Below, in pieces: positions 2,520 through 61,260 of a stretch of 64,000 nt of DNA. Position 1 is the stretch's first letter, and each line of letters begins with the position of its first letter. The DNA lies in contig JAYKYS010000010.1 in NCBI GenBank assembly GCA_036924285.1, forward strand, positions 10,453,001 to 10,517,000. The letters are read 5' to 3'. The notes below the pieces were generated by a model that saw nothing but the letters and a program-made list of their open reading frames with translations, did no database searches and had not been told where the DNA came from. The stretch is from Asterella californica (lineage: Eukaryota; Streptophyta; Marchantiopsida; Marchantiales; Aytoniaceae). Position numbers and translations under genes: made by a program.

Positions 2520-4110
2520 AGCATCAAACTTATCTCTAGATAATGCCTTAGTGAAGATATTGACAACCTGATCTTTTGTGCTCACATAACTAAGCTCAAT
2601 CTCTCATGCAAGGACCTTCTCTCTAATGAAATGACAGTGTACCTCAATGTGCTTCGTCCTAGCATGGAAAACAATATTATTAGTTATCTTCATGCTGCTA
2701 CACTCTGTCCATACATGATAGCCTGTAACTTAGGCGTAGAGACATCTAGTTTAAACAGCCTATCACTCTTGCTACCTCGAGCTTTGACAATGCTATAAGA
2801 ATCTTCAATAAAGCATCCATCTTTATTGAAGCGCACTTGCAAATCATGCTCTATCAACTGTCCTATAGATAGTAGGTTTCTAGTCAATGTGGGTACATGC
2901 AAGACATTCCATATACGAATATACGTTGAAGCAAGAATGTCAAGTAGAATGTTACCCTTGTGTCTGATCTGGTGCTTGGTGTCATTGTCTGTCACCATAA
3001 ACTGAGGAGTCTCCATAGGCTCGAGTGAACTGAACTACTCCCGATGATGTGACTGGTGGTGTCAGAGTCGATCACCCAGTCAATATGTGGCTCGAAAGCC
3101 GCATAATTATTATGAATGCCGTTGTAATCAGCAACTGTTCTGAATAGACTTGCTCAGTTACTGCATAGCATTGCTGGTTGATGTTACCTTGATGGGAGGT
3201 GTCGTAATATTATCTTTGGTTGTTCTGTCGCTTGTAGCATTGATTTACATTGTGGCTTTGCTTCTTGCAGTAGTTGCAGGAACCATGCGTACGTCTTTGA
3301 TTGTTGGAAGAACCAGTCTGTTGTTGTTGCTGTGATTGTTGATGCTGTCCGTGACCTCATCCACGTCCAACAATTATTCCACGACCATTACCTCGAGATC
3401 ATATAGAACCTGCAAAATAGACATATTCTTGTTGACCTCTCGAAGTAGTACTCCCTAGTAGACGCCCTTCTCTCCGTAAGAACAAGTTCATCAAACTGTG
3501 GAAGAGGTTCTCTGATCAAAATTGAAGTAATGAACTGCTTGTACTCAGCATACAGTCCCTGCAATATGGCCGTGATCAAGACAATGAGATCAATCTCAAC
3601 TTTGATACAAGATAATTGATCTATGAGTTGTTTGGCATGGTTAACATAGTCGTTGATGCACATCGACCTCTTCTTCACAGTGTTGAAACTACTGCAATAA
3701 TTGCAGCTTCCGTGTCTTTATTCCAGATTGAAATAGATGGACGAGTGCATCCTAAACTTTCTTAGACGTATCACAATCCTGGATGTGATCGATCATCGAT
3801 GTTGAAATTGTCAACATGATGTAGGGAATCGTCTAGTAGATCACTTTTTCCACTCCTTGAATTTTACATCAGAAATGGGTAGATCAAGCGTTTTCTCCTC
3901 TTTAGTGATAAGATCCCATAGATCTTGTCTCTCCATGAAGATCTCATCCGGAACTTCCACACTTTGTAGTTGTCGAGTTTCTCTCTAGTGATCAAAGACA
4001 CTGACTCTGTCATTCTGCAATTGAGAAATTGCACTGTTCTATACGTGGAAATTATCACAAAACCTCCATGAAACTCGTCTGCCTCCACCTCACGATGAAG
4101 AATTCATCTC
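2520..4110 (-). pseudogene. copia-1 gag/protease remnant plus RNase H tail
   Basis: Minus-strand fragments lie in element order. 4088-3864 is the gag N-terminal part, with a LDNYKVWKFRM-type motif. 3678-3388 is the gag core, with a YAEYKQFITSI motif typical of the UBN2/retrotransposon gag family. A CCHC zinc knuckle (CNYCKKQSHNVNQC) is at 3278-3237. 3016-2690 is the end of the protease and the pre-integrase segment (NVLHVPTLTRNLLSIGQL). From about 2690 the reading jumps to the last RNase H segment, ending near 2520. Frameshifts separate the pieces. An in-frame TGA (2606-2604) in the RNase H tail is shared with copia-2. It cannot make a complete polyprotein. Confidence 0.8.
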
Positions 4111-4606
4111 AAGTCACAACAATGGCAACTTTGCGCACTCCTCCCAAGCGAGAATGAAAAAGAACTTGTCTACGAACTGTAGGTGTACAAAACAAGGCGA
4201 AAACATCAAAAGAACTGACTAGAAAAGGTCAAAACTAGACCAGATGAGATAAAAAATGGACGCGCGATATCTTGAAATTTTGCTAATTTTGCTAATCAGA
4301 CCAGTATTTCTTTTCGACTCAAGTTCTAAAACTTTCATTTTGGTAGAAAAAGATCCAATTAAAAATTTATCGTTAGAAAGCTCCAAATCAGCTGAAACTT
4401 GACCAAGTTCACTGAGAAAAAATAGTCTAGGTCTCCGAAATGCGTTCTAAGTTTATGCTGACAATAGAAATGATTTGTCTCACACGAACGCATCAGCATG
4501 ATAGTGTTCAAGCACAACTCCAACTGCTCTCTCATGTACTTTTCCATGCACAAAGTCCATCTTGCTCATCAGCAAAGGACACATTCTCTCTACTGCTATG
4601 ATATCA

Positions 4607-4839
4607 TGTAGAAAGACCGATACTTCTAAGAAGACATTTTAAGAAAAGAGAGCGAGTAGACAAAGAAGTAAAATAGGAATGAGATGAGAGAAGTTTCTTC
4701 TCTCCATGTATATATAGTGGAGGTGAGTACAAGAGAAACTCTTATGGTGGGTTAGCTCTCTAACTAACTGTACGTAACTATCTTAACCACTTCGGCTTGT
4801 ATTAGCCGTGATCTACTAGAGCTTGGGACTATATCAACA
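4607..4839 (-). repeat. 5' LTR of copia-1
   Basis: This 233-bp LTR pairs with 2236-2469. It differs from its partner at many positions (for example around the CCATGTATATATAG box and near its inner end), far more than the copia-2 LTR pair, so the insertion is comparatively old. Confidence 0.85.
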
Positions 4840-9290: not shown

Positions 9291-9300
9291 ACTGCACTTG
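9291..9300. repeat. Left target-site duplication of the MULE
   Basis: ACTGCACTTG directly precedes the left end of the element. It matches ACTGCACTCG (20230-20239), which directly follows the right end, with one mismatch in ten. Mutator-like elements typically duplicate about 9 bp. Confidence 0.8.
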
Positions 9301-9500
9301 CAGAAATTTGTTTTATCATACCCCCAACAGGTTAGCTGAGTTTAATCACACCCCTCATAACGACATATTACTTTATCATACTCTCTGCAATAATTTACTT
9401 GATCATACCCCTGATAGGTTAGTTGAGTTTAATCACACCCCTCTTAACGGAATATTACTTTATCACACCTTGTTGCTTGTTCAACCCCTGATAGGTTAGT
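9301..9500 (+). repeat. Left terminal inverted repeat with subterminal motif array
   Basis: After the CAGAAATTTG end, the motif TTTATCATACCCCC / TTTAATCACACCCCT / CTTGATCATACCCCT recurs about every 28-30 bp, with at least six copies to about 9490. A longer unit (GGTTAGTTGAGTTTAATCAC) is duplicated within it. The right end has the same motif in inverted orientation. Repeated subterminal motifs of this kind are commonly transposase-binding sites; here that role is inferred. Confidence 0.75.
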
Positions 9501-9673
9501 TGACTGATTATCGACAATAAAACCGATGAGTTGTTTTTTCTTCATTTCACTACTTTCAACTGTTATTAAATATATGTAATCTACATCGTCTAACAATTAA
9601 TCTTGTTATTTTGCATGTCACTATTTTCATCTGTTATTTAATATATATTTTTTATTTTACACTATTTAAAGAG

Positions 9674-9707
9674 GAGCCGTATGAAATTTAAATTTCACGT
9701 ACGGTTT
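9674..9707 (+). other. Group II intron domain V-like sequence
   Basis: This 34-nt sequence starts GAGCCGTATG and ends CACGTACGGTTT, with an inner stem GAAATTT/AAATTTC. It has the conserved length, the AGC catalytic triad, and the paired CCGT.../...ACGG base stem of group II intron domain V, closest in my recollection to organellar introns of plants. The terminal loop is degenerate: no GNRA tetraloop is left. It is probably a fragment of chloroplast or mitochondrial DNA inserted in the nucleus and now inside the MULE arm. I saw no larger organellar segment around it. Confidence 0.55.
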
Positions 9708-9911
9708 TGAAACGGAGTTTTTTTTAATTAAATTTACAACCGTAACGAATGTCAGCTCAATCTGAAAGAGAATAATATGCAGAAACAATTATCTTCATGT
9801 CACTACTTTCATATGTTATTAATAATATGTCTAACATTTAAGTACACTTCAAACAATACATGCTCAGAGAAAAACACTTGATTCAAACGCTACATGCTCT
9901 CATAGAACTGA

Positions 9912-10061
9912 TATGTGACTCTTATTAAATATCTGTAAATCTACACGTCTAACAATTATGACATGTGACTCTTATTAAATATCTGTAACCTACATCGTCG
10001 GACAATTATGACATGTTACTCTTATTAAAAATCTGTAATCTACATCATCTAACAATTAAGC
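9912..10061 (+). repeat. 50-51 bp tandem repeat, three copies
   Basis: Copies start at 9912, 9963 and 10013, each beginning ATGTGACTCTTATTAAA or close and ending CAATTA. Degenerate related copies lie at about 9543-9660 and 9797-9850, so the array once filled much of 9540-10060. The sequence is AT-rich and noncoding, between the left terminal repeat and the inner inverted arm. Confidence 0.75.
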
Positions 10062-10235
10062 AGGTTTTTACTTGATCAGGCCCCCAGAACGAATCGCGGA
10101 CTTGATTGGACCCCTCTTATAAATCCCTTCTTGATCGGACCCCCAACCTGCAACAGCCCGTAAAACAAGTAACTGTGCCATGTCAGAGTACAGCTCGGAT
10201 TCAAAATACAAGTAACTGTGCCATGTCAGAGTACA
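10062..10235 (+). repeat. Left inner inverted arm of the MULE
   Basis: Three spaced copies of CTTGATCGGACCCC-type motifs (about 10071, 10100, 10131) are followed by AAAACAAGTAACTGTGCCATG. The reverse complement of the same block occurs at 19866-20047. This arm also holds a short direct duplication of AAGTAACTGTGCCATGTCAG. Confidence 0.75.
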
Positions 10236-10423
10236 GCTCGGACTGTACAACTGAAGTGTCGGAAGTGTTTACCGGGAAATTTGAAAAACGCAATACTGAT
10301 AATACAGTGACCGATTTCACTCTTTATTCGACGAGGGGTAGACATTTGTCGACTGAAATATATTTCTTAAGAGAAGAGTGCGACGGGTGTGGTTAGGAAG
10401 CAGTGAGTGCAAACACTTAAACG

Positions 10424-13084
10424 ATGGAGGATGTGGAATCTCCTAGTACTGAAGAGGAGAGATGTCTAGATGGATTATATTTTTAGGATATTGACAGACA
10501 CGACTTTACGTTGGATGCGAGGACCGATGAAGAAAGAGACTTGAGCATATTAGATCAATGGCGGCGCCAAATGTCACAAGCTCGAGCTGATGGCCGCGTG
10601 TTGCAAGGAAGAACATTAGAGTCATTGCGTGATGCTGCATGCAGATTGAAGTTGGGAGCGGAATTCTCATCCTTCAAAGATTTTGATTTTGCTGTTGATA
10701 GCTGGTGTTTTCTTCACAGTAGAGCAAGCCAAAAGGCAAAATCGAAAAAGAATTATAAGCTGAGGACATGCAGGTGGGGTGGCAACGCGCGCCGTCGCAA
10801 AAGTGTCAAACAGAGAGGAGAGATAAATAGAGCGGCGGAAGGAGATATTCGCAATAGTCAACCACGCAGCTTTCATGAGTTCTCTCAGAGACAAAGACAA
10901 CGCCGGCGACGAGATGATCAAGAAGCAAGTTCAGTCACACCAACACCAACAGCAGATCGAAGGGTGCCGGAAAATGGTCGCTGTGGAGAGAAATTACGAT
11001 ATTTGAGTGCGGGAAGAACCATCTTCTATGGAGGAGGTTCTATCGTCGAAGAGGTGTTAAATCAATGCAAATGGAGAATTAGAGCACAAAGAGGAAAGTT
11101 GAGTGTGAAAATCACTGTCACAGTTTACAATCTAGAACATACTTGCCCGACACACATGGCTTATTGGCGTGGTCCTGCATCAAATTCAAAATTTCTTGCT
11201 ACTGTTCTGTGTAATAGAGTGGCGATTGATCCGCATACACCTATTCGTAACTTGATGGAAGAAATCCGAACATCTTTCAACAAGCGAGCACCTTATAATC
11301 AAGTGTCGAGAGGTAGAGAACATTCGTGTGACTGGTTAGAAGGTAACCAAGCCGTCTCGTTTCACTATATTCCATCCGTGTGTAGAAGGCTTAAAGATGT
11401 AGACCCTGAGTGTGTAGTAGATTGGGGAACATGGGAGAATCACCCAACTGTTCTCAGCAGGTTCTTTGTGTGCCCAAGTGCCACCCGTAACGCATATAAG
11501 TTTTGTCAGAGAGTGATCTGCTTAGATTCTTGTCACAGTAAGAGCCGAAAATTTCCATCTCAGATTTTTTTAGCTACGGTGCTTGATGACGCAAACGAAG
11601 CTATCATCCTGGCATTTGCAGTAGCTCCAAGAGAAGATACCTCGAATTTGACATGGTTCTGTGGTTTATTGCGTGAGTCCATACATGGGATTTTATCACC
11701 CCAAACTGTTATAATCAATGATCGACAAAAAGATATTGAAAAAGCCGTGGCTACAATATTTCCTGACACAAAACATGGGCACTGTGCACAACACATTCGC
11801 ATCAACGTGCGCACACGCTTTGGGAAGGATGCTGAGCAGCTGTTTTTAGCATGTCTTTATGCCCGAACTCGTGAAATGTAAGTTCTTCAAATTGATTTCT
11901 TATCTGCTATCATTTTATTTGTATGAATCATGTCTGCTTCACTAACGTGGTTACTAATAGAGGTAATTATGTATGAATGCAGGTAAGACAGTGTCTTGAG
12001 CAAGCTGGCTGATTCCGGAGAAAGAGGCAAACAGCTAGGAGAATACTTACGAGATATCGATCCAGCGAGATATAGTAGGTGTGCCTTTCCTTTACCACGT
12101 TATGGGAATGTTACTTCTAATGTTGCAGAGAGCATAAACAATGCTCTAGGACAAATTCGATGGAATGCACCTCTTAAGATTCTACTCGATCTTTGGTATT
12201 ATAGTATGCAGCAATTTATGAAGCGAAGGACACAGCTTCGACTGGAGACAAATTTGTTAACGAAATTTGCGAGACTCAGGTTTAATGAGAATGAACAGGC
12301 TGCTGAGGGTTTTCTCTGTCAAATATCGAGCCAAACTGAGGCCACGGTTCGTTGTCATAGAACTGGAAAGAGTTATGTTGTGAAACATTATGTAAACGGT
12401 AGAGGTACATGCACTTGTTTGAAGTATCAAGAAATGGCTTGGCCATGTGGTCACATGATAGCTTTCGACAGAGAGCTTGGAGAGAGTCCAATTACACGAG
12501 TAGATTCAATTTGGTACAGTTCTAGTCTTATTTCAATTTATGGTCATTCATTTCTGCCTGCTATGACAACCGATGACTTAGAACCAGTGTGGACTTGTAG
12601 ACCACCTCCTATAGCTAAGCGTATCGAGAGACATAGAGTAATGAGGATAGATAATAATACTCAGTTCTCACAAGCGAGAGCTACCGATGCAGCTGAAGCA
12701 ATTGATGATGCTGACGAGAACGTGGCTGAAGATGGAGAAACTATTTCAAGAGGCGGAGTCACTATTGAGAACATTTTTCCTTTACATGACATGCCGGTGA
12801 ATCATTTTCCAAGTTCGGATATGACTCATAGAAGGAGAAGAGTAGTTTTAGTGACTGATCCTTCATCATCTGACCAATTAGGATCACAATCACGATCTAG
12901 TTCAAGGAGTTGCAGTAGGTGTAAGCAACAAGGACATAACAGACGGACTTGTCCTGGACAACAAGTAGTTAATGAACCCATTGCTTCTCTTCCAGTGGAG
13001 GGCGATATGTTGGTTGAGGATGAGAACGAGGTAATCTTCACTGCATCTAGTGGTGATGAAGATGAGGATGAGGATGAGGTGTAA
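10424..13084 (+). pseudogene. MuDR/MULE transposase, one in-frame TAG
   Basis: Two exons, 10424-11877 and 11992-13084, join over a 114-bp GT-AG intron and would encode about 848 residues. ATG 10424 is in frame, but TAG at codon 21 (10484-10486) interrupts it. Motifs in order: the N-terminal MuDR-type part with Arg/Lys-rich segments; the MULE transposase domain with candidate catalytic Asp in ICLDSCH (about residue 369) and INDRQKD (about 431), then HGHCAQH; an NVAESINN motif after the intron; a SWIM zinc finger (CTC...CGH, about 625); a CCHC knuckle (CSRCKQQGHNRRTC, about 792); and a very acidic C-terminus. I could not assign the third acidic residue. Starting downstream of TAG would still leave a long ORF (from about 10487), so partial function cannot be excluded. 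The family cuts and pastes MULE DNA in the nucleus. Confidence 0.85.
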
Positions 13085-13450
13085 CTAGTTGAAGTTTTGT
13101 GTAGTTTCGGGTATAGAGTAAGAGTCCTGGAACTGAAGTTCAGATGGCTTCAAAACAAAAGATATTGTTTGACGATTAACTATGTAACGATGTTGGACGA
13201 TTATTGTAACGATGGATATTGACACATGTTGCTGGTCTGCATCGTCTCATTTTAGAGTCGAGTCTCCGTTTGTCTCCACATTTACTGTAAACTCCATAAT
13301 TTGCAAACACGATGAAGTGGTGGCAGCTTTTCATATCGGCTTGAAAACTAATGCATACCCACTCTTATAAAATATTAGCAGCGTCATGTAATATCAAAAT
13401 CACACTGAAACTCCCAAAAGTTTGTACAAAATGCTCAAAAAAAAAGCCAA

Positions 13451-13620
13451 AACAATGAGAGGAGAGGGAGGAGAGGGAGAGGAGAGGGAGAGGAGAGGGA
13501 GGGAGAGGAGAGGGAGGAGAGGCGAGAGAGTGGTGTGAGAGGAAAGAGAGTTAAGGGAGAGGAGAGTTATACGAGAGGCGAGAAGAGAGGAGAGGAGAGT
13601 GAAGAGGACAGTACATCGTG
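13451..13620 (+). repeat. GA-rich low-complexity tract
   Basis: Runs of GAGAGG and GGAGAG units lie between the transposase stop and the next gene. The position just upstream of the fusion gene's first exon would fit a GAGA-type leader or promoter element, but that is inference. Confidence 0.7.
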
Positions 13621-13708
13621 TGTGGAGCGCGCAGAGTGCGAAAGATTAACTAATTCTTGAGTGAGTTTTAAATTTGAAGTTCCTATTCTGAGCGATGTCA
13701 TCGCTGTG

Positions 13709-16700
13709 ATGAGAACTCGAGGAGTTGGCCGTGGCCGAGGTAGAGGAGATGGAAGAGGACGAGGTCGAGGCCGCGATGGAGTCGCGGGAGAGAGGAGAGT
13801 TCGAAGAGATGAATCCTGTAAGATATATCTTACATCCATGTGTTTGTTTGAATCAGTGTTGTGTTTGTTTGAATCAGTGTTGTAATGGTTAGCGTTTCGA
13901 TGTGATATGGTTGTTAGGTAGGCGATACAGTCTGTTTCGATGTAACTTTGTAGTTTAGGGTTAGCGAAACATTATGTTTCGCCGTTTTTTTAAATATGTG
14001 GGCGAAACATACGTGTTTCGCCCACATAGATGGCAAAACACATATGTTTCGTCTTGCGGGGAAGGGGTACCCCTTCCCCGATTTATTACAGTGGGCGAAA
14101 TAGACGTGTTTCGCCCACTGTGAGACGAAACACGTATGTTTCGCCTCGATATATAATCGGGGTAAGGGGTACCCCTTACCAGATAATATATGTGGGCGAA
14201 ACAGACGTGTTTCGTCCACTGTGAGGCGAAACACGTCTGTTTCGCCTCGAGGGTAAGGGGTACCTCTTACCCGATAATATATGTGGGCAAAACACGTCTG
14301 TTTCGCCTCGAGGGTAAGGGGTACCCCTTACCCGATAATATATGTGGGCGAAACAGACGTGTTTCGTCCACTGTGAGGCGAAACACGTTTGTTTCGCCTC
14401 GAGAGTAAGGGGTACTCCTTACCCGATAATATATGTGGGCGAAACAAACGTGTTTCGTCCACAGGGTAAGGGGTACCCCTTACCCGATAATATATGTGGG
14501 CGAAACACGTCTGTTTCGTCTCGAGGATAAGAGGTACCCCTTACCCGATAATATATGTGGACGAAACAGACGTGTTTCACCCACTGTGAGGCGAAACACG
14601 TCTGTTTCGTCTTGAGGGTAAGGGGTACCCCTTTCCCCGATAATATATGTGGTCGAAACAGACGTGTTTCGTCCACTGTGAGGCGAAACACGTCTGTTTC
14701 GCCTCGAGGGTAAGGGGTACCCCTTTCTCCGATAATATATGTGGGCGAAACATACGTGTTTTGCCCACCCTATTTGTCCTTCTTTTTAACTTTTTTTAGA
14801 CTATCTTTGTTTCTAGTTGGTGTGTTATAATGTCTTTGTTTCTAGCGGGTGTGGCATTGGAGAGTATGAAGGAAGGACCTTCAATGTTCAAGTATTCTCA
14901 CGAAGAGGACGAGAGATATCATTTGAAGTGGTGTTGGGTTTCGAGAGATGAAGTGGAGAATTCATTGCAAGGAGTGGAGGAAGAAGCTCTTGACCGACTA
15001 GGATTACTTGTTGCTTTCTCCTTTGACTTTCCTCCTCCGGATGTAAGTAGTCATTCTTATGTAACTTTGGTTGGATGCATGTCCTCTTGTTTATAGTATG
15101 GATGTTATTTCCATCACTTCTGTTAGTTAGTAATCCTTTTATATCATTGAGGGTGTGGTTTCTTTTTAAATGGATTTGCAATTCTGTTTATATGGTTAGA
15201 TTGTTTATTTTACAGGTTTCATTTTATATAGAGTTCATCCAGTCATACGATGAGAGAAATCATCGTGCTATTGTACAAGGACACGAGATAGTGTTGGATG
15301 AGTCGGTTTTAAGGGAGTCACTAGTTTTACCTATGGGAACAACCATCCCTCGTCCTCATAATGTTAAGAGGAGCATGATAGATGATTGGTTTCCTCAAAC
15401 AGATGAGAAGGGAAAGAGATATTTATTGTGGATGTGTGAGTATCCGGAGTGGAGACCCGTTTTCCAGCTTATCAATTGTCTCTTTCTGGCGAGACGGCGA
15501 CCAAGAGAAGTACATGGCCATTTAGCTTTATACGTCAAGACAAAAGTAGAGGAGACGGCAGAAGATTACGACTGGACGGAATTCATTTTAGATTCCTTGG
15601 ATACAGAGATCTCTTCTATCAAAAAACATATGAGCAAGGAGAGATTAGTGAGACATCCAGAGACATGGGTAGGTATGATCTTGACCCATCTTATGATCCA
15701 CATGGGTATACTTCCCGAGGGAGGACGAGTGGATTCATCTCGGCAAAATCAGCCATCATCGAGTAAGGCCTTTAACTTCTTGTGAGAGCATTGTCTTTTG
15801 TTTCTTTTACTTACAATTTAATGATTAGTCTTGAATATGTAGTGTTGTAACTCACATTTCACTCCATTGATTTCAGATGTGGCAGAGTCTTCTCATCATG
15901 GTCAAGACCCACAGTCTTTGCAGCATGTTACTCCATCATCAAGTAAGACTTTTGCAATTTAAGGTTTCAGGGTTTCTTCTTTGTTATGATAAAGTTTGTA
16001 TTATGTTTAAACTCTCATCTCGTCTCATGTGGTGTTTCCAGACCCTGCTGTGCCGTCTTCTTCTCCTGGGCAAGATCCTCAATCTTCGCATCATGCTCGT
16101 CCTTCGTCAGGTAAATATATTATAGTTTAAAGTGTTTCTAATTAAACTTTACATATCCAATGATCCTTTTCAACTTGTTTCTTTAGTTATAGTTTTGTTT
16201 TACTAAATAAGAAGTGTTGAGACATATTTAGCTTTGTTTTTTTTATCTACAGATGATGAAGCTATTCTCATAGCGAGAATTAATCAACTCCATGAAGCCA
16301 TAAAGAGGAGGGAGGAAGAGCTTAAGTCCAAAAATGTTGAACTCGAGCATTTGAACTATCAACTCATGGTAGTTCAAGAAGAGTTGACCACGATACGAGC
16401 TGCCGAAGAGTTCTATCCTCCTCTAGTTGCACCTACCGGAAATCGACGTAAGACCTTAATCCTCGACTTGAATGGTCTTTTGGTATTAGTGGGAAGAAAC
16501 GAGCATGAGTTGATGCCTGTGCGTGAGAGAAGATATGTAATACAAACTACATCGAAGCCGTTTATATGGTACGTGGCGAGACGTGGAGTGAAGCAGTTTT
16601 TGGAAATCTGTCTAGATAAGTTTCATGTCATCATATGGACTTCTCGGACGATGTTAAACACGGCCACTTTACTACGTGCTATGGAGGATGATGATTATCT

Positions 16701-17298
16701 ACCTCCTGGAGTGACAAAAGGGAAGGTATGAACTTTTTAGACTTTGAATTTCTTTTCAGATCAACTTATCAATATCTTTGTTGTATTATATGTTATTTGT
16801 TTGAGCTAAGATATATATTCTAATGGGGATTTTTTTTCTTTGCAGGTATGTCATATTTTTGCTCAAGACATGTGTTTCAAATACAAGACGGTGAGAGAAG
16901 CTGCCTCTGAGAACCACTTGTACTTGAAAGATTTTGCACAGCTTCATCATCGCAACTTGAGCACGAGAGACGTATTATTGGTGGATGATAGTCCAGTGAA
17001 AAACTGTACTAATCATCCTTTTAATGCTATACATCCTCCTCCTTTCTCTCCTTTCACTATGGATAGTGATAGAGAATTGTATCTAGAAGCCACTTTGTTG
17101 CCTTGGCTTCTTCGTTGGGGTGTTAGCCTAGAGGCAACACCAGTTTATGTAGAGAGCAGATATTCACAGATTTATGGTCAAGATCCATTTATAGCTCTTA
17201 AAAGTTATTGGACCAATATTACCCAGGAGGAGGCAAATATTGTATGGAGATCTGTTCCTCATGGAGTTTGTATGGATCTCTATCCTAAACTTCGATGA
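13709..17298 (+). CDS. Transposon-domain / FCP1-like HAD phosphatase fusion protein
   Basis: Seven exons join in frame over GT-AG introns: 13709-13817, 14846-15042, 15216-15762, 15877-15942, 16042-16110, 16253-16725, 16846-17298 (637 aa, no internal stop). Residues 1-36 are Arg/Gly-rich. About 103-270 resembles a putative plant transposon protein domain (IVQGHEIVLDESVLRESL... and ...MILTHLMIHMGIL). 285-329 is a Ser/Gln/His linker from two similar small exons. 332-382 is a coiled coil. About 395-600 is an FCP1/NIF-type HAD domain with LILDLNGLL (nucleophile D401; N403 replaces the usual second Asp), IIWTSRT (456-462) and VDDSP (D534, D535). Known FCP1-type enzymes dephosphorylate protein Ser/Thr; DxN here may mean weak or no catalysis. 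The least certain point is exon 1; ATG 14830 would give a shorter product starting in exon 2. Confidence 0.7.
13990..14770. repeat. Hairpin array 1 (GAAACA/TGTTTC and GGTACC palindromes)
   Basis: Units start at about 13997, 14090, 14191, 14282, 14343, 14434, 14495, 14556, 14649 and 14740, with spacings of mostly 91-93 or 61 bp. A full unit holds three palindromes: GTGGGCGAAACA-GACG-TGTTTCGTCCAC, AGGCGAAACA-CGTC-TGTTTCGCCT, and a 22-24 bp palindrome centred on GGTACC (perfect at 14057-14080). The 61-bp units lack one GAAACA hairpin. By eye there are about 16 GAAACA hairpins and 9 GGTACC palindromes. The two hairpin types are reverse complements of each other, with complementary loops. The array lies inside proposed intron 1 of the fusion gene. 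Apparent ORFs across it are by-products of the repeats. Confidence 0.9.
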
Positions 17299-17539
17299 GA
17301 TACATAACTCTTTTTGAGGAAGTCCATAATTTTATCTTGTAAACAGTTATATTTTGTAATACTTACTTTCTAATGTTAAGCTACACTACTTTAAGATATT
17401 GTCCTTCACTGCTACACTAGTTTAAGAGATTGTCTTGTGAAGGGTTGTTTGAGAGAAAGAAAAGAACACAACAAGAAGACACCGTGTGTAGGGTTCGATT
17501 CGAAGAAGCTGTAAGTGAACATCGAGCGAGGTTAAGAAC

Positions 17540-17807
17540 ACGCTACAAAGCGAGACATGCGTTTCTAGAAAAGAATCCAGTATTGATTGGAGCCGAGTAC
17601 ACATCATCGATACTCGGCTCCAAACAGTTTTGGATTCTATTCCATTGTACTCAAATTTGATCATATTGGGAGCACGCTACAAAGAGAAACATGCGTTTCT
17701 GGAAAAGAATCCAGTATTGATTGGAGCCGAGTACACATCATTGATACTCGGCTCCAAACAGTTCTGGATTCTATTCCACTGGACTCAAATTTGATGAATA
17801 TCAGGAG
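17540..17807. repeat. 134-bp tandem duplication with an internal hairpin
   Basis: Two copies (17540-17673 and 17674-17807) follow the fusion gene. Each holds GGAGCCGAGTA and TACTCGGCTCC (17589-17599 and 17611-17621 in copy 1), a perfect 11-bp stem with an 11-nt loop. Further inverted similarity (AAGAATCCAG...TGGATTCTAT) extends outside it. It could act as a 3' end or terminator structure, but no function is shown. Confidence 0.75.
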
Positions 17808-18078
17808 GCAGCAAACTTTCAGATTTGAAGATATCTCAAACTTCTAAACCGGATGGCTTGGCCGGGAGAAGCAGTACGGGGAGAAGCAGTACGTGGACAT
17901 CGAGGTTAGAGGACGACGAATAGTTTCCATGCGGATAAAGAACTTCCATGAGCAGTTTATTTCTTGCACTTCTTGCAAAGTTTATAAAGCGATAAGAGGA
18001 ATCGCTACAAAGCTACTTACAAATTAAGGATTTTCGCATCCATAAGAGTTTTCGGTGCTCTTCGCAAAGTGTAGCCTC

Positions 18079-18536
18079 AGAGGACGAAACATCATGTTTC
18101 GCTCTCCGCAAAGTGAACTCAATAACAGAGGACGAAACATCATGTTTCGCCTCCGACTAATCTTCACGAGGCGAAACACTCCATGTTTCGCCTCGTGACA
18201 GGGCGAAACATCGTGTTTCGCCCTCGGGGTAAACAGAAAGTCGGCGAAACACAGAGTAAACTGTCACGAGACGAAACACTCCATGTTTCACCTCCAAGTA
18301 AATGTCGAGGTGAAACATCGTGTTTCGCCTCGTGACAAGACAAAACATCGTGTTTCGCCCTGTAACGAGACGAAACACGAATACATCAGAGGACGAAACA
18401 TGATGTTTCACCCTCTGCAAACTCTACCCAACGTCAGAGGCGAAACACTCTCTGTTTCGTCCACTGGGTAGGCTTGTACATGCGAAACATGTATGTTTCG
18501 CTTACCGAGTGAGCGAAACATATCTGTTTCGTCTCC
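18079..18536. repeat. Hairpin array 2 (GAAACA/TGTTTC palindromes)
   Basis: About eleven short hairpins share the GAAACA-loop-TGTTTC core of array 1 but have different arms and loops. Examples are CACGAGGCGAAACA-CTCCA-TGTTTCGCCTCGTG (14-bp perfect stem, near 18166) and AGGGCGAAACA-TCG-TGTTTCGCCCT (near 18200). No GGTACC palindromes occur. The array lies between the convergent ends of the fusion gene (plus) and the RPA-like ORF (minus), about 100 bp from the stop of the latter. Confidence 0.9.
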
Positions 18537-18636
18537 TTAACGAGTAATATTACTAGCTTTTTCTCGAAAGCATGCATGAGTTTGAACACTGTATTGAATT
18601 CAAAACTTTATTATAAAACTGATGATCTTTTTACAC

Positions 18637-19440
18637 TTACAACTCTTTCAGTTTCCGTAATGCCTCTACTAATTCTAACAGTTCTTCTTTTTCTTGGCGT
18701 CTGAGCTCTATTACAGCATGCAAATCCCGAGCAATACCTTCTAAGCTCTGTTCAGTCTCTTCTGATTTTTCAACCAGGGCCAATACTCGATAATGTAAGC
18801 GTTCTATCTCAACAAGCTCCGCAGTATTGCCCACTGTGGACATTTCACTTTCTATTGAAGGATAAAATATCACACTATCCATGACAGTGGCAAGATCTTC
18901 TATAGCGTCTTCGAACTCATCTAACTCCTCTACCTCCTGCTCCACATCGAACACGGTAAATCGATTCTGCTTCGAATTCATACCTATTTTAAATCGCCAT
19001 TTCTTTCTGCAAACAACATTGAAAATGTTATCTTGTTCATCAGAAGATAATTTCTCGAACTCTTCCACAGTGATCTCTAATAGTTTCTCTCCAATACTCC
19101 ACACAATGGCTATAGGTAAGGCTGCTTCTGGACGATCACTTACACTATAATCGATCAATCCTAAATGAAAACGATATTGCCTTTTACTTCTCCTTTGACC
19201 ACAAGCATGCTAAGCTTTCCTACTATCAGATTGCGAGTGATTGAAATATAACACCTTCCTTGCCGAGCTTGACGAGATTTGTGTCTGTTCTGTCACTTGC
19301 TTGAAACACCTTGGAAAATTACAAGCAACGTACGATATAGAACTCCACTTCTGATTTTTTATTATGCGCTGAATAGAAACTACCACCCACATGGAAGGCA
19401 TATTATTTATGCACTCTTCAAGTTCTGCCAAAGAACACAT
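18637..19440 (-). pseudogene. RPA70 C-terminal OB-fold-like protein, one in-frame TAG
   Basis: One minus-strand frame runs from ATG 19440 to the stop at 18637 (267 sense codons) and is broken only by TAG at 19212-19210. Before the TAG is SYVACNFPRC followed by FKQV, like the first half of a zinc ribbon. After it come HAC and YRFHLGLIDYS, then IVWSIGEKLLEITVEEFEKL and FTVFDVEQEVEEL. This order matches the DNA-binding domain C of the large RPA subunit (zinc ribbon in an OB fold). The C-terminal about 90 residues are acidic and probably coiled coil. RPA-like proteins bind single-stranded DNA in the nucleus and are known as cargo of plant Helitrons. I saw no Rep/helicase here, so this copy seems to be MULE cargo. 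N-terminal OB folds are absent or in unseen exons. The family call is moderate, made from the pattern only. Confidence 0.5.
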
Positions 19441-19454
19441 TTTAGAGTTCTGTC

Positions 19455-19575
19455 GTCTCTACTCAAGCTCTGCGGACTTCGATTCAACACATTCGAGATC
19501 TCCCGTCTTCGATTCAAGACGCTTATGCTCTTCCACATTCGATTCAACGCGCTCAAGCTCGCCCGCATTTGTAAC
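19455..19575. repeat. About 30-bp tandem repeat, 3-4 copies
   Basis: Units built on TTCGATTCAA(C/G) recur about every 30 bp just upstream of the RPA-like ORF (minus strand). A multiple-of-three period would allow an in-frame peptide repeat, but I could not tie it to the ORF. Confidence 0.6.
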
Positions 19576-19865
19576 ACGACATTTCTATAAGCTCTACCGT
19601 TTTAGTAACACAACTTGAGTTCTCAACAATATGAAACAAACTTCATTCGAAACTTCTATTCCCGCATCTTCGTCACTTGACCGCGTCTTCATCCCTTGAA
19701 AGGTCCAAAATGTACTCAAATTTCTGGCGATAAGTTGTACTCTGACATGACTCTCACGTCATTGTGGAGTGGTTGATATCATCTTAGCTGTACTCTACGT
19801 CATCGTGATGTGATTGATATCATTCTAGCTGTACTTTGACATGGCACAGTTCCTTGTTTTACGTG

Positions 19866-20047
19866 CTATTGCAGATTGGGTTGATATCATCCTAGTTGTT
19901 CTCTGACATGACACAGTTACTTGTTTTATTGTCAGACACAGTTACTTGTTTTATGTGCTATTGCAAGTTAGGGGTCCGATCAAGAAGGAATTTATAAGAA
20001 GGGTCCGATCAAGTCAGCGATTCGTTCTGGGGCCCGATCAAGTAAAT
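19866..20047 (-). repeat. Right inner inverted arm of the MULE
   Basis: This is the reverse complement of the block at 10062-10235, with three GGGTCCGATCAAG or GGCCCGATCAAG motifs (about 19974, 20003, 20030) and CACAGTTACTTGTTTTA copies. Extra degenerate copies extend left to about 19735. Confidence 0.75.
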
Positions 20048-20174
20048 TACTGAACAATTAAGTACACTTAAAACGATACATACTCAGAGAACTGATATGT
20101 GACTCTGAGCATGATATGTGAGTACAAAATGTCACTAATATAACAAAGCGAGTCGTTTAACAGTCTATAGCCAC

Positions 20175-20229
20175 TCGGGTGTGATCAAACCATACATCCT
20201 TAAGAGGGGTGTAATCAAGCAAATTTCTG
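20175..20229 (-). repeat. Right terminal inverted repeat of the MULE
   Basis: Read on the minus strand it begins CAGAAATTTGCTTGATTACACCCC and shares the first ten bases exactly with the left end. A GATCACACCC motif follows about 35 bp in, as at the left. It ends at 20229, followed by ACTGCACTCG. Confidence 0.78.
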
Positions 20230-20239
20230 ACTGCACTCG

Positions 20240-22313: not shown

Positions 22314-24004
22314 TCAGCATTCGCAGGCAGATGACTTTGTTGGCCTATTCGCAGCGACGTCGATTGTGTCAGGCAAGTATCTGCATCACAACAATGACAA
22401 TATAAACAACAACACCACCACTGTCAGCTGGAAACAACCCTAGACCAACGCAGTATGTGCCCTTGAATCGAAGCCAGGCATGTCACTGTAAAGGGATGAG
22501 ACTCACATTTCTTCATCCGTCTCGTTCTTTAATGCATTCTTGGCAATGCACTGGAAAGCGGCATCAACGTTAAAATCTTCCTTCGCAGAGGTCTCAAAAT
22601 AAGGGATGTTGCCATGCGATGTACACCACGCCTTAGCCTTCTTCTCAGAAACCTGGCAAGGGCAAAGATCGAATCATACACTCACCCAACCACTTAACTA
22701 CTGGAGAACACAAACCGAAAAGAACAGACATGTTCCGCGTGAGACAAAGAGGGTTCAACTCACCACGCGACTATTCCCACTGTCGACGTCAACCTTGTTG
22801 CCAAGCACCACAAAAGGGAAGTTCTCTTGATCTTGTGGGCTTGCCTGCATGTAATCAAGCATGTCAATCAGGACTCAACAATGTCCTCACATGCACCTTC
22901 ACGCAGAAAAACGACGGAGCTGACCGGAGAGAGAAGAAACTGACTTGAATTAGAAACTCATTACGCCAGTTATCCAAGTTGTCGAATGATCTCATCACAT
23001 TCACATCGTATACGAGTACACAGCAGTCGGCTCCACGATAGAAGGCAACACCGAGGCTCTGGAATCGCTCTTGCCCTGCCGTGTCCCAAATCTGTACATA
23101 AGACTTCTTCGTCAAGTTCGCAACGCAACCAAGGTCGTTGGATTTGATTGAGTGCGAGCAAAGAATCGGATGCAATGAGTACACCTGTGCAGTTCTCAAC
23201 CCCATCGCCTTTACACACGACTGAAACTTGACGCAAACTACGACCCATAAAACACTAAAAAACACAAAGGTAATGTGTATTTACAAGTATGCTACTAGTG
23301 CCCACCTGCATCGTGACGAGCCTGTCCTCCACTTGAACCTCCTTCGTTAAGAAATCAGCACCAATAGTTGCCTTATATTGAGCGGTGAATTTCTTATTTA
23401 CATATCTGTCAGTTGGTTAAGGAAGCACATTCCAGACCAAACCGCTCTCGACAAGATAAAAACCAAAATGACGTCACTGAAGAGGTCTCGTAACATGCAT
23501 GGCCAAGTGACAGTCGAGAAACTGACGTGATTACACTGGGAATGGATACTGATTCATCAACGATGTTTTTCCTACCCTGTAAAGCACAACGGCCACAGCA
23601 AGGGGCTACCAATCATCAGAAACACCACAGGTGAAACTCATAGAGATGTCGAAACCCTACATCCCAAGTTCGAAGGGAAAGATTTGACAGAGCAGAAACT
23701 AGAGGGACCTTGCACGGCAAGAGGAATTACAAATTGAGGGTAAAAGCTAGATCTGCGCGACCCGCATGCACATCTAAAAGCGCGAAGCTTTAGTCAAAAT
23801 CATGTCCAAACTTTGGACATTAGAGTAACTTCCAACTCAATTTACGCAGGATATCAGGAAGCAAATCTGTTTAGCCGGTCAACCTGGATCACGATGAAAA
23901 AAGGAAAAAAGGGAAAATACTACATCCTTCACCCGCTCTGAAAGATCTTACCCGCTATCTCCAAGAATGATAACCTTGAGCAGAGTCCTTTTCCGAGCTG
24001 ACAT
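22314..24004 (-). CDS. RAB7: Rab7/RABG3-type small GTPase
   Basis: Seven coding exons on the minus strand join in frame over GT-AG introns: 24004-23952, 23576-23550, 23405-23306, 23091-22945, 22844-22764, 22652-22507, 22380-22314. They give 206 residues, the usual Rab7 length. The start [18 protein letters not shown] matches plant Rab7. Seen motifs: P-loop GDSGVGKT (15-22), switch I Thr40 in [14 protein letters not shown] (63-67), NKVD (125-128), ETSAK (156-160), and a C-terminal CEC for double geranylgeranylation. Exon 2 is only 27 nt. The protein controls traffic from late endosomes to the vacuole, on the cytosolic face of those membranes. No stop, frameshift or missing key residue was found. 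It is the one ordinary host gene in the window, with GC-richer exons than the surroundings. Confidence 0.97.
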
Positions 24005-40154: not shown

Positions 40155-41473
40155 TGTCGTGATGTGAATCATTTCACATAGTAAATGATTCACTTCTCTG
40201 TCAGGCGTTAGTCTCTCTGAGTGAAGTTAAGACCTCAGAGAAGTCCATTTTTGGAAGATGTTATATATTTTGAGTCTTAGTAGGTTGATTACCATGTTGA
40301 TAGGGTTTAAGCTCATGGGTTGTATTTGCGTGTCGCCCATGCACGCTTTCTAGCTGATTTAAGTTAATTTTCGGGGCTGCATGTCATTTTAGGTAGTTTA
40401 AGTTTTACGCTGGCACTCTAGGGGGCTTGACGTGGTAGCCTATGAGTGTAGATAAGTTACCAGGTAGTTTAAGGCACAAAAGGACAACCAAATGGAGCTA
40501 TGAACTCCCATTGGTCCATTTTTGTCTTTTGTAAAACTCTAAGTTTAGAAACAGAGGTCTAAAGGAGATTTTTAGCAACTGGTAAGGACACTGCGAAATC
40601 TGAGAGCACAAGGAGATAGAGCTCGTCGAGCCAAGCACTGTCAGTGAAATTCTTGATCGATTTGGATCAATAAACAAGGAGTTATGCCCAATTGAAGTTT
40701 GGATTGTGCCAAAACTGCATCACTTTTGTTGATTTTGGGGTTTTGAGTGTCAATTGCAGCAGAATTGAGGAAATCGCTTCAAACCTTCGTGGTTGCGTTC
40801 ACTGTCAGCCGGGCTACAACTGTCAAATTAGTTTCAAGTGATTTGAGTTACTGAGTAAATCAGGGCGACCGCTGAAGCAGAAGGGGTCCGAAAAGCTCTC
40901 AATCTGGAACATTAACTTCAGAGAGCGAGATCTGGAGTTCTGTGTGGAATCAGGAGGCCCAACTTCACAGGAGTGTTCAACAAGCTGTGTACTACAAATA
41001 CTGTAAGAAACTTCGAAATTGATCGAGCCAACCTCTTTTTATAGGTTGAAACAGCTGTCTGGGTACCAGAAATGGCCGTAATTTCTCTACTCAGAAAGTT
41101 TCTACTCATATCTTAGTGCTCTGAATTGACCTGAAGCTGAAACTTCGTATGTGTTTCTAGTAGGACCTCATTGACATGTAGGAGGAGTTCTGAAGTCTGA
41201 ACCTTCACATATTTCTCAATCTTGAGTGTCAAAGCTCACCATCTGATCTTATCATTGCTAGTTAAGTCTGAACTTTACTTCCTGAACATATCAGAAGAGC
41301 CAAGAGACTTATATGAGTGTTTTTCAGTATCACCTTGAGACCTGAAGCCTATCCTTTGAGTAAACCTGCCACAGCCTGAAGCCCAACGCTTCCTTGAGTA
41401 GATTGAACACAGCCTTCAAGCTCATATCACAGCCAGAAGGTTCGCCCTTCCCAAGAAGACTCTCAACCCGACA
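40155..41473 (+). repeat. 5' LTR of gypsy A
   Basis: 1319 bp, TG...CA ends, followed at once by TCTGGTGCTTCCACTGAGAG, which looks like a tRNA primer-binding site of the TGGTGCTT type seen in plant gypsy elements. Confidence 0.92.
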
Positions 41474-41494
41474 TCTGGTGCTTCCACTGAGAGC
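41474..41494 (+). other. Primer-binding site of gypsy A
   Basis: TGGTGCTTCCACTGAGAG begins two bases after the 5' LTR. TGG matches the CCA end of a tRNA. Which tRNA primes was not determined. Confidence 0.6.
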
Positions 41495-41541
41495 TCTTGG
41501 GGTGATTGATTGAGAAGGTTGAGTTACTACAAGGAGAAGAG

Positions 41542-43986: not shown

Positions 43987-44216
43987 TTTCTGACCGTTCG
44001 TACGAACCACGAACGAAACCGGCAGATCTTAAGGGATTCTCCTATCTGTAGGAGTAAGGGTTTTCAGAAACCACTCTCGTAGGACGGGATAGCGAGAGTG
44101 AAGGATCTACTGCTACTATGATCCCGCTTGAGCACCCTGAGGGATCATAGGAGGCTGATGGAGAGGCTGCTCAAGATTCAGAAAGTAGTTGCACTGTAGA
44201 TAGTTGGAAATCTGGT

Positions 44217-47200: not shown

Positions 47201-47711
47201 CTTTCCTACATGGGCTACGCTACCGTGGGAAGATGGTATAGATCGTGTTTCACTCCTTGCTTTACGTATTAGGCAGTTGGAGCGAAGGGAGGAGGATCTT
47301 GCTGATGCGCAGGAGAGGCTGAAGGTGGCTCGAGTTAAAAACAAGAAACGTTTTGACAAGACTCACCGACTACGACCGAAGCCAATACATGTTGGTGACT
47401 GGGTTCTGGTATATGATAGCACGTTGGAGAATCAGCATTCTACACTTCGTAAGTTCTCTCGAAGATGGTTCGGGCCTTATGTTGTGCAAGATGTGTATGA
47501 GAATGCCACTTATAGTTTGCGTGAGTTGGATGATACTCCTTTGAAGCTATCTGTGGCTAGCAAACGTGTGAAACTGTTCAAGAGACGCGGAGGATCAGTT
47601 GAGTTATTGAACTTTCTGGAGTCAGAGTTGAGGACAACAAGAGACAGAGACGTCTCAGTGTCTGATGAGACTGAGACGGAGGAGAGCGATGATGATGAAG
47701 AACAAGCATAA
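44217..47711 (+). pseudogene. gypsy A pol (RT, RNase H, integrase), one in-frame TAG
   Basis: The frame 44217-46607 holds reverse transcriptase with WFTVPKKTGALRFIQDLQPA, SIGDLFSGYDQFQLAL, and the active site as PFLDDILMKG (FLDD rather than the common YVDD/YIDD). RNase H follows (LTVDTSPKAIGWAVGQ, ETDCLPLLGMI). TAG at 46605-46607 falls inside the integrase zinc region: H...H before it (EFHDTLWAGH), CLHC after it. The same frame continues to 47711 with the integrase core (LRADRGELRG, then PEDIGKSERGH) and a C-terminal part rich in Arg/Lys followed by an acidic tail. Only one stop breaks nearly 3.5 kb, so decay is recent. pol is in a different frame from gag-protease. Confidence 0.9.
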
Positions 47712-47763
47712 GACTGAACAGGTTGGCACATGCCGGAGGATGTGCAGGTTTGGAGGGGGTGGA

Positions 47764-56295: not shown

Positions 56296-56524
56296 TGTAG
56301 AAAGATCGATACTTCGAGGACACTCCAAGAAGAGAGAGAGCGAGTAGACAAGGAAGTAAAATAGGAATGAGATGAGAGAGGCTTTGCCTCTCTCTGTATA
56401 TATAGTGGAGGTGAGTACAAGAGAAACCCTAATGGTGGGTTAGCCCTCTAACTAACTCTAACAACCCTAACCACTCCGGCTAATGGTAGCCGTCGATCTA
56501 CTAGAGCTTGGGACTATATCAACA
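56296..56524 (-). repeat. 3' LTR of copia-2
   Basis: 229 bp, TG...CA ends, three differences from 61032-61260. Confidence 0.95.
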
Positions 56525-56529
56525 CTCCC

Positions 56530-60700: not shown

Positions 60701-61018
60701 AAACTTCCGTCTTGGTCGAAAAAGATCCGATTGAAAATCTGCCACTGGAAACCTCCAAATCGACTGAAACTTGACCCAGTACACAATTCGCACCTTCTGA
60801 ACAAGACAGTCTTTAATAGACTGGTCGACAAATTTCAGCAAAAAAAAATCATCTAGGCTTCCGAAATCGCGTTCAAAGTTTCTGGTGGCGAAAAAAACGG
60901 TTTCGTCTCACCCGAACGCATCAGCAGGATAGTGCTCGACATCAGGCATAACTCCGGCTGCTCTCTCCTGTACTCCAATCTCCATCTTGCTCATCAGCAA
61001 GGGACACACACTCTCACC

Positions 61019-61031
61019 AGCTCTGATACCA
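61019..61031 (-). other. tRNA-iMet primer-binding site of copia-2
   Basis: TGGTATCAGAGCT on the minus strand directly abuts the 5' LTR. This is the standard copia primer site for initiator tRNA-Met. Confidence 0.93.
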
Positions 61032-61260
61032 TGTAGAAAGATCGATACTTCGAGGACACTCCAAGAAGAGAGAGAGCGAGTAGACAAGGAAGTAAAATAA
61101 GAATGAGATGAGAGAGGCTTTGCCTCTCTCTGTATATATAGTGGAGGTGAGTACAAGGGAAACCCTAATGGTGGGTTAGCCCTCTAACTAACTCTAACAA
61201 CCCTAACCACTCCGGCTAATGATAGCCGTCGATCTACTAGAGCTTGGGACTATATCAACA
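61032..61260 (-). repeat. 5' LTR of copia-2
   Basis: 229 bp. It differs from the 3' LTR at three positions, followed by TTCTC target duplication at 61261-61265. Confidence 0.95.

Follow-up and report, generated by a model that had tools for sequence, protein, structure and literature searches.

Nested MULE insertions in Asterella californica: a three-gene element with retained accessory genes and palindrome arrays

An interval of about 10.9 kb in the genome of Asterella californica, located within the window (the whole stretch of 64,000 nucleotides that was analysed), raises the question of whether it represents one large transposon carrying captured genes or more than one insertion, and of whether the additional genes and palindrome arrays residing in it are of use to their element. 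The features identified are compiled in Table 1.

Table 1. Features of the nested elements (positions within the window).
Feature	Position	Strand	Remarks
Outer left target-site duplication (TSD)	9291–9300		ACTGCACTTG; right copy 9/10 identical
Outer element, left part, short, MITE-like	9301–10060	+	begins CAGAAATTTG; second terminus-like unit at 9388
Plastid-type group II intron domain 5/domain 6 fragment	9671–9746	+	within outer element
Exon-like stretch	9747–9765	+	adjoins intron end; ATG frame reads MSAQSE
Outer-element tandem repeats, three x 50 bp	9909–10058
Inner left TSD	10051–10060		AACAATTAAG
Inner left terminal inverted repeat (TIR)	10061–10242	+	40 scored genomic matches for 10061–10260
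Gene A exon 1, MULE transposase	10424–11877	+	PF10551, E 6e-13, 49.5 bits, cut-off 27.6
Gene A exon 2, SWIM-like and CCHC-like zinc motifs	11992–13084	+	PF04434 E 0.0015, PF13696 E 0.021, both below cut-off
Gene B, seven exons, 637 aa	13709–17298	+	six introns, all GT-AG
Gene B exons	13709–13817, 14846–15042, 15216–15762, 15877–15942, 16042–16110, 16253–16725, 16846–17298	+
Palindrome array 1, intron 1 of gene B	13965–14768		12 exact CGAAACA-N0-8-TGTTTCG cores and GGGTAAGGGGTACCCCTTACCC-type palindromes
Tandem pair of long hairpins	17536–17795	+	134-bp period, 94% identical; just 3' of gene B
Palindrome array 2, 3' of gene C, between B and C	18083–18534		7 exact cores
Gene C, RPA C-terminal-domain-like, long charged coiled-coil-like tail	18637–19440	-	one in-frame stop (TAG) in window copy
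Inner right TIR	19827–20052	-	end reproduced in c38, c39, and c40
Inner right TSD	20053–20062		AACAATTAAG
Outer element, right part	20063–20229	+	ends CAAATTTCTG
Outer right TSD	20230–20239		ACTGCACTCG

The interval 9301–20229 consists of two nested insertions, namely a younger MULE inside a smaller, related element. The inner MULE (10061–20052, 9,992 bp) contains all three genes, and the two segments of the short host element add up to 927 bp. Perfect 10-bp repeats border the inner MULE, and, in a search of the whole window at spacings of 200 to 14,000 bp, the ends flanked by 10051–10060 and 20053–20062 formed the sole CAG...CTG pair with an exact 10-bp flanking repeat. Furthermore, joining the outer flanks across the inner insertion yielded a match of 38 out of 42 bp to a sister repeat (9830–9871), spanning the joint. 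Using the left TIR (10061–10260) as a query, 40 scored matches (39 besides the window's own) with identities of 86–98% were obtained among 332 first-look candidates. None of the 20 copies with an examined left flank showed any likeness to the window left of 10061, as judged by eye on 60 bp and, for the copies c38, c39, and c40, also by blastn; in these three copies, the right end was equivalent to position 20052.

An earlier note on this DNA had described a single MULE extending from 9301 to 20229 and had proposed to check whether other copies end elsewhere. They do, as genomic copies stop at 10061, and the single-element claim has to be given up. The inverted arms that the note had regarded as an internal second pair exist (10079–10177 and 19937–20035, 90% complementary), but they represent the true terminal repeat of a separate element. 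Likewise, the outer termini (9301–9310 and 20220–20229) and the 10-bp flanking duplication with one mismatch are present as reported, but the termini belong to the short host element.

This host element is a member of another, related family. Its terminal sequence, CAGAAATTTG, was found in three exact matches in the window, on both strands (the third at 19717), compared with 0.33 expected by chance. The first 81 bp of its left part were 73–78% identical to the left ends, and the last ~116 bp of its right part 73–77% identical to the right parts, of the genomic loci L010–L013. Its termini are also found on short elements of 343–484 bp: six facing CAGAAATTTG pairs were chosen by spacing among 100 listed genomic places, and four of them were flanked by a perfect 9–10-bp TSD, one by a 7/9 duplication, and one by none. 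No usable facing pair was present at L015–L017, and no pair with a TSD at L001–L008. The intron fragment within the left part scored 54.8 bits for the Rfam family RF04357 (cut-off 53) and 48.9 bits for RF00029 (cut-off 40), and the exon-like stretch next to it presumably corresponds to the beginning of exon 2 of plastid ycf3. The candidate ycf3 junction had no match among viral contigs.

The inner element features TIRs of ~180 bp with 79–91% identity in blocks, i.e., the long TIRs of a MULE. Its target duplication of 10 bp, being perfect in the window, c38, c40, and the relative L064, and 9/10 in c39, agrees with the 9–11 bp stated for the superfamily in the excerpted text of PMC3310237. The MuDR-type transposase postulated earlier was confirmed as a MULE transposase by the PF10551 match of gene A, the start of exon 2 being chosen from two possible acceptors. 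An in-frame stop at 10484–10486 (codon 21) was detected in the window only, that is, in one of the four close copies. Because genes A and C are both interrupted here, a fact of the sequence from which we infer the loss of function, the window copy of the inner MULE is probably no longer mobile on its own.

Gene B was recovered as the seven-exon fusion gene described before, with a confirmed frame and a layout comprising an RG-rich start, a domain lacking a Pfam match, a coiled-coil-like linker, and a NIF/FCP1-like HAD domain at the C-terminus (PF03031, E 9e-15, 55.1 bits, cut-off 21.8). Its introns are of the GT-AG type in the four close copies, the exception being one altered donor in c38. 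Phosphatases of the FCP1/SCP (NIF) type within the HAD group carry the catalytic motif DxDx[TV]. Gene B has PF03031 and the VDDSP motif in common with them, the latter being retained in the window, c38, c39, c40, L064, and L065, but differs by DLN in place of DxD at motif I in all six of these copies and by the fusion to an extra N-terminal domain. No Pfam model matched this N-terminal domain, and Pfam revealed no recognised DNA-binding domain in B. A PDB sequence search returned no hits for B, its HAD part, or C, and the two structure models, with pLDDT values of 51 and 34, were of too low a quality to be searched by fold.

For gene C, the signal behind the proposed likeness to RPA is weaker: the PF08646 (Rep_fac-A_C) match stayed below the curated cut-off of 28.5 in the window (E 5.5e-4, 20.2 bits, only with the TAG masked; E 6.4e-4 with the TAG read as Q), in c39 (E 2.7e-4, 21.2 bits), and in L064 (E 2.9e-5, 24.3 bits). 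The frame is open in c39 (271 aa from stop to stop) and in L064. A spliced version of gene C, with an intron removed, lost the PF08646 match, and the unspliced frame with its stop was therefore preferred. An Ulp1 domain was matched in neither B nor C. Altogether, the three genes and the hairpin arrays reported for this MULE were borne out.

All three close copies examined in full (c38, c39, and c40) are complete, 95–96% identical to the window, and equipped with A, B, and C. Short TIR matches (query positions 1–187 or 7–187) had been considered TIR-only copies; the four that were opened all continue into the transposase region at 92–96% identity. L064 represents a complete relative of 11,393 bp (C1:8036914–8048306) with TIRs of 231 bp (87%) and the TSD CATCTCATAC (10/10). 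It holds A, B, and C in a different order, with the transposase on the opposite strand and further right, together with another ORF resembling C (28% identity across 160 aa); the assumption that L064 has no transposase was overturned by the neighbouring stretches. Within the aligned codons of A (772), B (549/637), and C (265), L064 contains no stop. The occurrence of the genes in c38, c39, c40, and the divergent L064 supports the earlier statement that the set travels together. In the 200 kb around the window, neither palindrome cores nor matches to A, B, or C were detected; the outer element was matched there just twice, both times weakly.

Comparison of the window with L064 yielded a dN/dS of 0.11 for gene B (dS 0.93, dN 0.10; Fisher 4e-65; 549/637 codons) and of 0.12 for gene C (dS 1.44, dN 0.18). 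The dS of B was uneven, being 0.44 in exon 6 and 1.1–1.4 in the other exons. Gene A showed pS values of 0.81/0.72 and pN values of 0.21/0.25. Judged from these codon comparisons, purifying selection acts on both B and C, which do not represent passive cargo. Among the close copies, dN/dS values of 0.67–0.87 were obtained for B, 0.48–1.15 for its HAD part, and at least 0.94 for the linker where defined, with Fisher tests being mostly not significant; such values nearer to 1 would be expected for decaying copies and, taken alone, lend no support to B being used. Between the two subfamilies, B is 79–85% identical per exon hit, compared with 60–70% for the transposase (60–63% for its exon 2), and this smaller divergence is strong evidence for the use of the accessory genes.

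Arrays of CGAAACA-N-TGTTTCG cores were found at both non-coding places in five out of five complete elements examined. Intron 1 of gene B comprises 12, 13, 22, and 9 cores in the window, c38, c39, and c40, respectively, and the region 3' of gene C 7, 5, 5, and 8; L064 has 7 and 4 cores at these places, with other loops. Elsewhere in the window, no cores occurred. The longer palindrome form was detected at 722 genomic sites, compared with none for the reversed-pattern control. For the flanks of 29 cores, pairing over the first six positions reached 100, compared with 82.5 for reshuffled flanks (sd 6.3, maximum 105, 5,000 shuffles; the copies being non-independent), and the base adjoining the core paired less often than in reshuffled flanks (12 vs. 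15.9 of 29). The hairpin pair, present in the four close copies, has a predicted fold of -108.7 kcal/mol (z -11.8). Since the two extra genes and the palindrome arrays are retained in a distant relative, the sequence comparison suggests that the MULE depends on them and that they are not an accidental acquisition.

The best overall explanation, in which we have moderate confidence, is that of nested transposons, the inner one belonging to a multi-gene MULE family that keeps A, B, and C. The nesting, the copies, the conserved gene set, the purifying selection, and the placement of the arrays are demonstrated by the sequences. As the likeliest mechanism, though still tentatively, it is proposed by analogy that B and/or C act on the family's own arrays in a VANC-like manner. 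VANC binds short motifs, tandem repeats of which have built up within VANC21 and VANB21 introns; these motifs are arrayed in one orientation, according to the excerpt of PMC5735166. Correspondingly, the element's palindrome arrays would be the target that B and/or C recognise, this recognition would keep the element unmethylated and expressed so that A can act, and the HAD domain of B would serve as a binding or altered-chemistry module, not as a normal phosphatase. As counterpoints to this analogy, the motifs are palindromic here, B has no recognised DNA-binding domain, and the arrays could be products of slippage.

Rather unlikely, in our view, is a role of B and C as transposition cofactors instead of anti-silencers, with B aiding the transposase in targeting or complex assembly, C protecting or repairing single-stranded DNA where the element excises and inserts, and the arrays being transposition enhancers or internal sites for the transposase or B. 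The joint retention of A, B, and C under purifying selection, the RPA-C-like signal, and the second C-like ORF of L064 are consistent with such a role; however, the arrays are located in an intron and between genes, away from the TIRs, and the RPA signal is below the cut-off. Similarly doubtful is a passive nature of the arrays, as self-propagating palindromes or slippage-prone repeats and possibly a source of hairpin siRNA, with B and C serving an unrelated use. Copies that are 95% identical already differ in how many cores they have and in their loops, which points to fast change; the nearby hairpin pair folds strongly, and pairing of the base beside the core falls below the reshuffled level, all of which would fit passive repeats. 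This reading is opposed by the identical core at the same two positions in L064 at a dS near 1, by the excess of pairing in the first six flank positions (within the limits of non-independent copies), and by the abundance of the longer form over its control.

A capture of B and C by chance as host gene fragments, in the style of Pack-MULEs, is very improbable: MULEs often capture gene fragments (excerpt of PMC13317346) and B has a host-type NIF phosphatase domain, but the element has its own transposase, and the dN/dS values were obtained against a complete relative with the same genes in another order. Accordingly, the word "cargo" used in the earlier note is not the best one, although capture is the likely ultimate origin of the NIF domain. 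A single 10.9-kb MULE with tandem TIRs at both ends, to which the relatedness of outer and inner ends across their first ~60–80 bp and the 9/10 outer duplication might point, is ruled out by the inner TSD, the short outer-type elements, and the copy boundaries, and its probability is close to nil: multiple-TIR MULEs, which resemble the present interval in their two pairs of inverted arms, are known from tomato, Arabidopsis, rice, and maize, but in the tomato elements the internal TIR lacks a recognisable TSD (PMC3310237), and the perfect TSD at the inner arms here therefore indicates nesting.

In a limited literature search, no MULE with a NIF-like gene was found among titles and abstract openings, which is no proof of absence. 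Maize MuDR (mudrA/mudrB) is likewise a MULE with TIRs in which an accessory gene accompanies the transposase, having two genes compared with three in the Asterella MULE; mudrB is not known to contain a NIF or an RPA-like domain. Pack-MULEs are non-autonomous and carry host gene fragments; host-derived sequence lies between the ends in both cases, but the Asterella MULE differs by its own transposase and conserved genes. Ulp1-carrying MULEs (Kaonashi/KIU) keep a host-type enzyme domain in a multi-gene element, as outlined in the excerpt of PMC13317346, the domain being NIF/FCP1-like here, with no Ulp1 match in B or C. VANDAL MULEs (VANA/VANB/VANC; Hiun, VANDAL21, and VANDAL6) also combine a transposase with two further genes, L064 having the C-like ORF as a fourth. 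Their introns and other non-coding stretches contain arrays of a short motif, which gain and lose units whereas the motif itself persists (excerpts of PMC5735166 and PMC10398659), and the arrays of this study behave likewise. In contrast, degenerate TIRs are given for VANDALs in the excerpt of PMC10398659, whereas those of the Asterella family are clear and ~180 bp long. The VANDAL motif also differs from the palindrome described here, and the Pfam domains, NIF/HAD in B and RPA-C-like in C, give no link to VANB or VANC. Anti-silencing has been shown for VANC, whereas for the Asterella MULE it is a putative role.

One palindrome at two fixed non-coding places represents a clear cis element, through which a role in anti-silencing or as a cofactor can be tested directly beyond the VANDALs of Arabidopsis, and the genomic palindrome sites offer a ready read-out through the methylation and expression of array-bearing copies. 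It is unlikely, though conceivable, that this MULE constitutes a second, independently built anti-silencing system of plant transposons, in which a TIR MULE uses the fusion of an unassigned domain with a substituted (pseudo-)phosphatase, alone or together with an RPA-like partner, to read the palindrome arrays in its own intron and intergenic DNA. If true, VANC-like self-recognition via motif arrays would have evolved repeatedly, each time from other protein components.

The earlier note described the interval 9301–20229 as one complete 10.9-kb MULE carrying three genes between matched ends. These outer ends were recovered, with CAGAAATTTG at 9301, its complement ending at 20229, and ACTGCACTTG and ACTGCACTCG outside them. 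The second, internal pair of inverted arms was also found, but it is not a mere inner feature of one MULE, since the arms bear their own exact 10-bp duplication and thus mark a separate element. The left terminus of this inner element (CAGGTTTTTACTTGATC...) starts at 10061, its right terminus (CAGTAATTTACTTGATC..., reverse strand) ends at 20052, and the identical ten bases AACAATTAAG flank it on both sides. In a scan of the whole window (spacing 200–14,000 bp), the inner pair was the only CAG...CTG pair with an exact 10-bp flanking repeat. When the inner 9,992 bp were removed and one duplication was kept, the sequence spanning the joint matched a sister repeat of the outer element (9830–9871) at 38 of 42 bp. 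Because the flanks rejoin without the insert, and the outer duplication has decayed by one base while the inner one is still perfect, the outer element was likely inserted earlier and the inner element later.

A search of the assembly with the left 200 bp of the inner element yielded at least 332 first-look candidates. Of these, 40 were scored and listed; the 39 besides the window's own showed 86–98% identity. Left boundaries were examined for the best 20 of these 39 listed matches, and likeness to the window left of 10061 was found in none of them, so that 9301/20229 can no longer be held as the boundaries of the repeated unit. CAG was present at the left start in 17 of the 20 copies, and other first bases in three. 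The three best matches, c38, c39, and c40, are full-length (9,806, 10,483, and 10,016 bp, respectively), mutually 95–96% identical together with the window copy, and flanked by the duplications GAAAGAAATG (10/10), TAAGATCATT/TAAGATCAAT (9/10), and TACACATAAC (10/10). The gene set indeed accompanies the inner ends: genes A (transposase), B (NIF/HAD fusion), and C (RPA-C-like) were present in all three full copies. Another four of four copies, examined over 1.24 kb, extended into the transposase region, and the further copy L065 contained A, B, and a partial C.

Without its insert, the outer element is 927 bp long. Its terminal 10-mer CAGAAATTTG was detected at no fewer than 4,064 sites of the 516.7-Mb assembly, 2.4 times the count for the reversed control (at least 1,723). 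Of six facing CAGAAATTTG pairs (spacing 343–484 bp), hand-picked among the first 100 places listed, four carry perfect 9- or 10-bp duplications, so CAGAAATTTG marks the termini of a short-element family. Among short elements with ends of this type, L010–L013 matched the outer element at 73–78% over 81 bp (left ends) and 73–77% over 108–120 bp (right ends), L009 was similar to its ends, and L014 weakly so. Inside the outer element, domain 5/6 of a group II intron of plastid type was found above the Rfam cut-off, which suggests a plant source, and the letters directly after it are presumably the start of ycf3 exon 2; this MITE-like element seems to hold captured plastid DNA.

Elsewhere in the window, a polyprotein ORF (56745–58025) that we take to be Copia-like lies beside a set of related repeats, and the WDTAGQERF... 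stretch of another ORF is presumably Rab-GTPase-like.

Features located in the window and in the divergent relative L064
Feature	Position	Strand	Remarks
Plastid-type group II intron domain 5/6 and exon-like stretch	9671–9765		Within short MULE-type element
ORF	22864–23280	-	Contains WDTAGQERF...
Gypsy-type LTR retrotransposon	40155–49082		LTRs 40155–41473 and 47764–49082, 97.4% identical; Ty3-like polyprotein ORFs between
Related repeats	2236–2700, 4401–4839, 56296–56755, 60827–61260		79–88% alike; one 232-bp part 98%
Tandem repeat	59769–60253		157-bp period, 3.1 copies
Second C-like ORF, open	L064:2303–3064	+	254 aa from first ATG; near L064 left end

The transposase gene and the seven-exon, phosphatase-like fusion gene of the earlier note were both recovered: A has the MULE transposase domain PF10551, and B encodes 637 aa with a C-terminal NIF/FCP1-like HAD domain. 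For C, on the opposite strand, the RPA-C likeness is sub-threshold. B also matches TIGR02251 (E 2.6e-9), far under that model's cut-off. The standard phosphatase HAD motif follows the DxD rule; the corresponding motif of B is DLN in all six copies examined, which argues that its HAD domain is no standard phosphatase.

The splice sites of B are conserved in the close copies, bar one donor in c38. In the window copy, with the ATG at 10424 taken as codon 1, A is interrupted by a stop at codon 21; C contains one internal stop. Counted in the window's frame, internal stops in c38, c39, and c40 numbered 2, 1, and 0 for A, 3, 0, and 0 for B (c39 with frame-changing gaps), and 2, 0, and 3 for C (one stop common to c38 and c40). 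A has frame-changing lengths in c38 and c39, and B of L065 contains two stops in exon 3. Open frames were found for B in the window and c40, for C in c39, and for A in c40, where the frame consists of two long pieces. Individual copies are decaying, and each gene is still open somewhere among them.

The divergent relative L064 (with L066 and L067) was found via a palindrome cluster on contig C1. It is complete, 11,393 bp long, with the same first 40 bp at both ends and the perfect duplication CATCTCATAC. Identity to the window was 79–85% per exon match for B, 67% for C, and 67% and 60% for A; the gene order is C-like (+), B (+), C (-), A (-), compared with A (+), B (+), C (-) in the window. 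The extra C-like ORF shares 28% identity with C across 160 aa, and a scan from 2306 gave no Pfam match above cut-off. Between the window and L064, B showed dS 0.93 and dN 0.10 (Fisher 4e-65) in a comparison of 549 of its 637 codons, drawn from four of the seven exons (2, 3, 6, and 7). C showed dS 1.44 and dN 0.18, and A pS 0.81 and 0.72 (near synonymous saturation) with pN 0.21 and 0.25; some dS values exceed 1 and are rough (B exon 6 is lower, at 0.44), but the direction, purifying selection, is plain. Among the close copies, dN/dS was higher (A 0.45–0.88, B 0.67–0.87, C 0.34–0.67), as expected for decay of recent copies, and is on its own insufficient to show constraint on B.

All 19 exact CGAAACA-N0-8-TGTTTCG cores in the window lie within the inner element, 12 in B intron 1 and 7 downstream of C. 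The two arrays recur in c38, c39, and c40 (13 + 5, 22 + 5, and 9 + 8 cores), in L065 (2 and 6 cores at corresponding places), and in L064. The L064 cores have loops different from those of the window; 7 lie between the exon 1 match (3680–3763) and exon 2, which begins at 5237, and a further 4 fall between genes B and C. A Markov model of L064 gave a mean of 0.0 cores in 200 runs. The stricter pattern GGCGAAACA-N2-6-TGTTTCGCC matched at least 722 genomic sites versus 0 for the reversed pattern. We grouped the first 50 of the listed sites into 14 clusters, of which three consist of a single site. Both clusters opened (L064 and L065) proved to belong to elements of the family, and a third cluster has a listed TIR match 4 kb away; near the TIR match C1:18675769, which falls within the range that the listing covers, no palindrome site was present among those listed. 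Flank pairing over six positions of 29 loose cores reached 100 versus a reshuffled mean of 82.5 (sd 6.3; maximum 105 in 5,000 shuffles), and at the core-adjacent position 12 versus 15.9, below expectation; since the core copies are tandem duplicates, this is only mild evidence. Just downstream of B (17536–17795), two tandem 134-bp units with long-hairpin folds (z -11.8), present in the close copies, may be precursor-like for small RNAs.

A protein encoded by the element may recognise the palindrome arrays, for which VANC of VANDAL21 is the nearest worked example. According to passages of PMC5735166 and PMC10398659, VANC binds short motifs, tandemly repeated in VANDAL21 introns and upstream regions, and demethylates there, and these motif arrays grow and shrink quickly. 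An anti-silencing role can be put forward tentatively; a role as a transposition cofactor is only slightly less probable, and the remaining probability falls to passive arrays and other readings. In the two subfamilies examined, this multi-gene MULE family is shown to have kept A, B, and C together with both palindrome arrays, even though synonymous sites have diverged almost to saturation and the genes have been rearranged.
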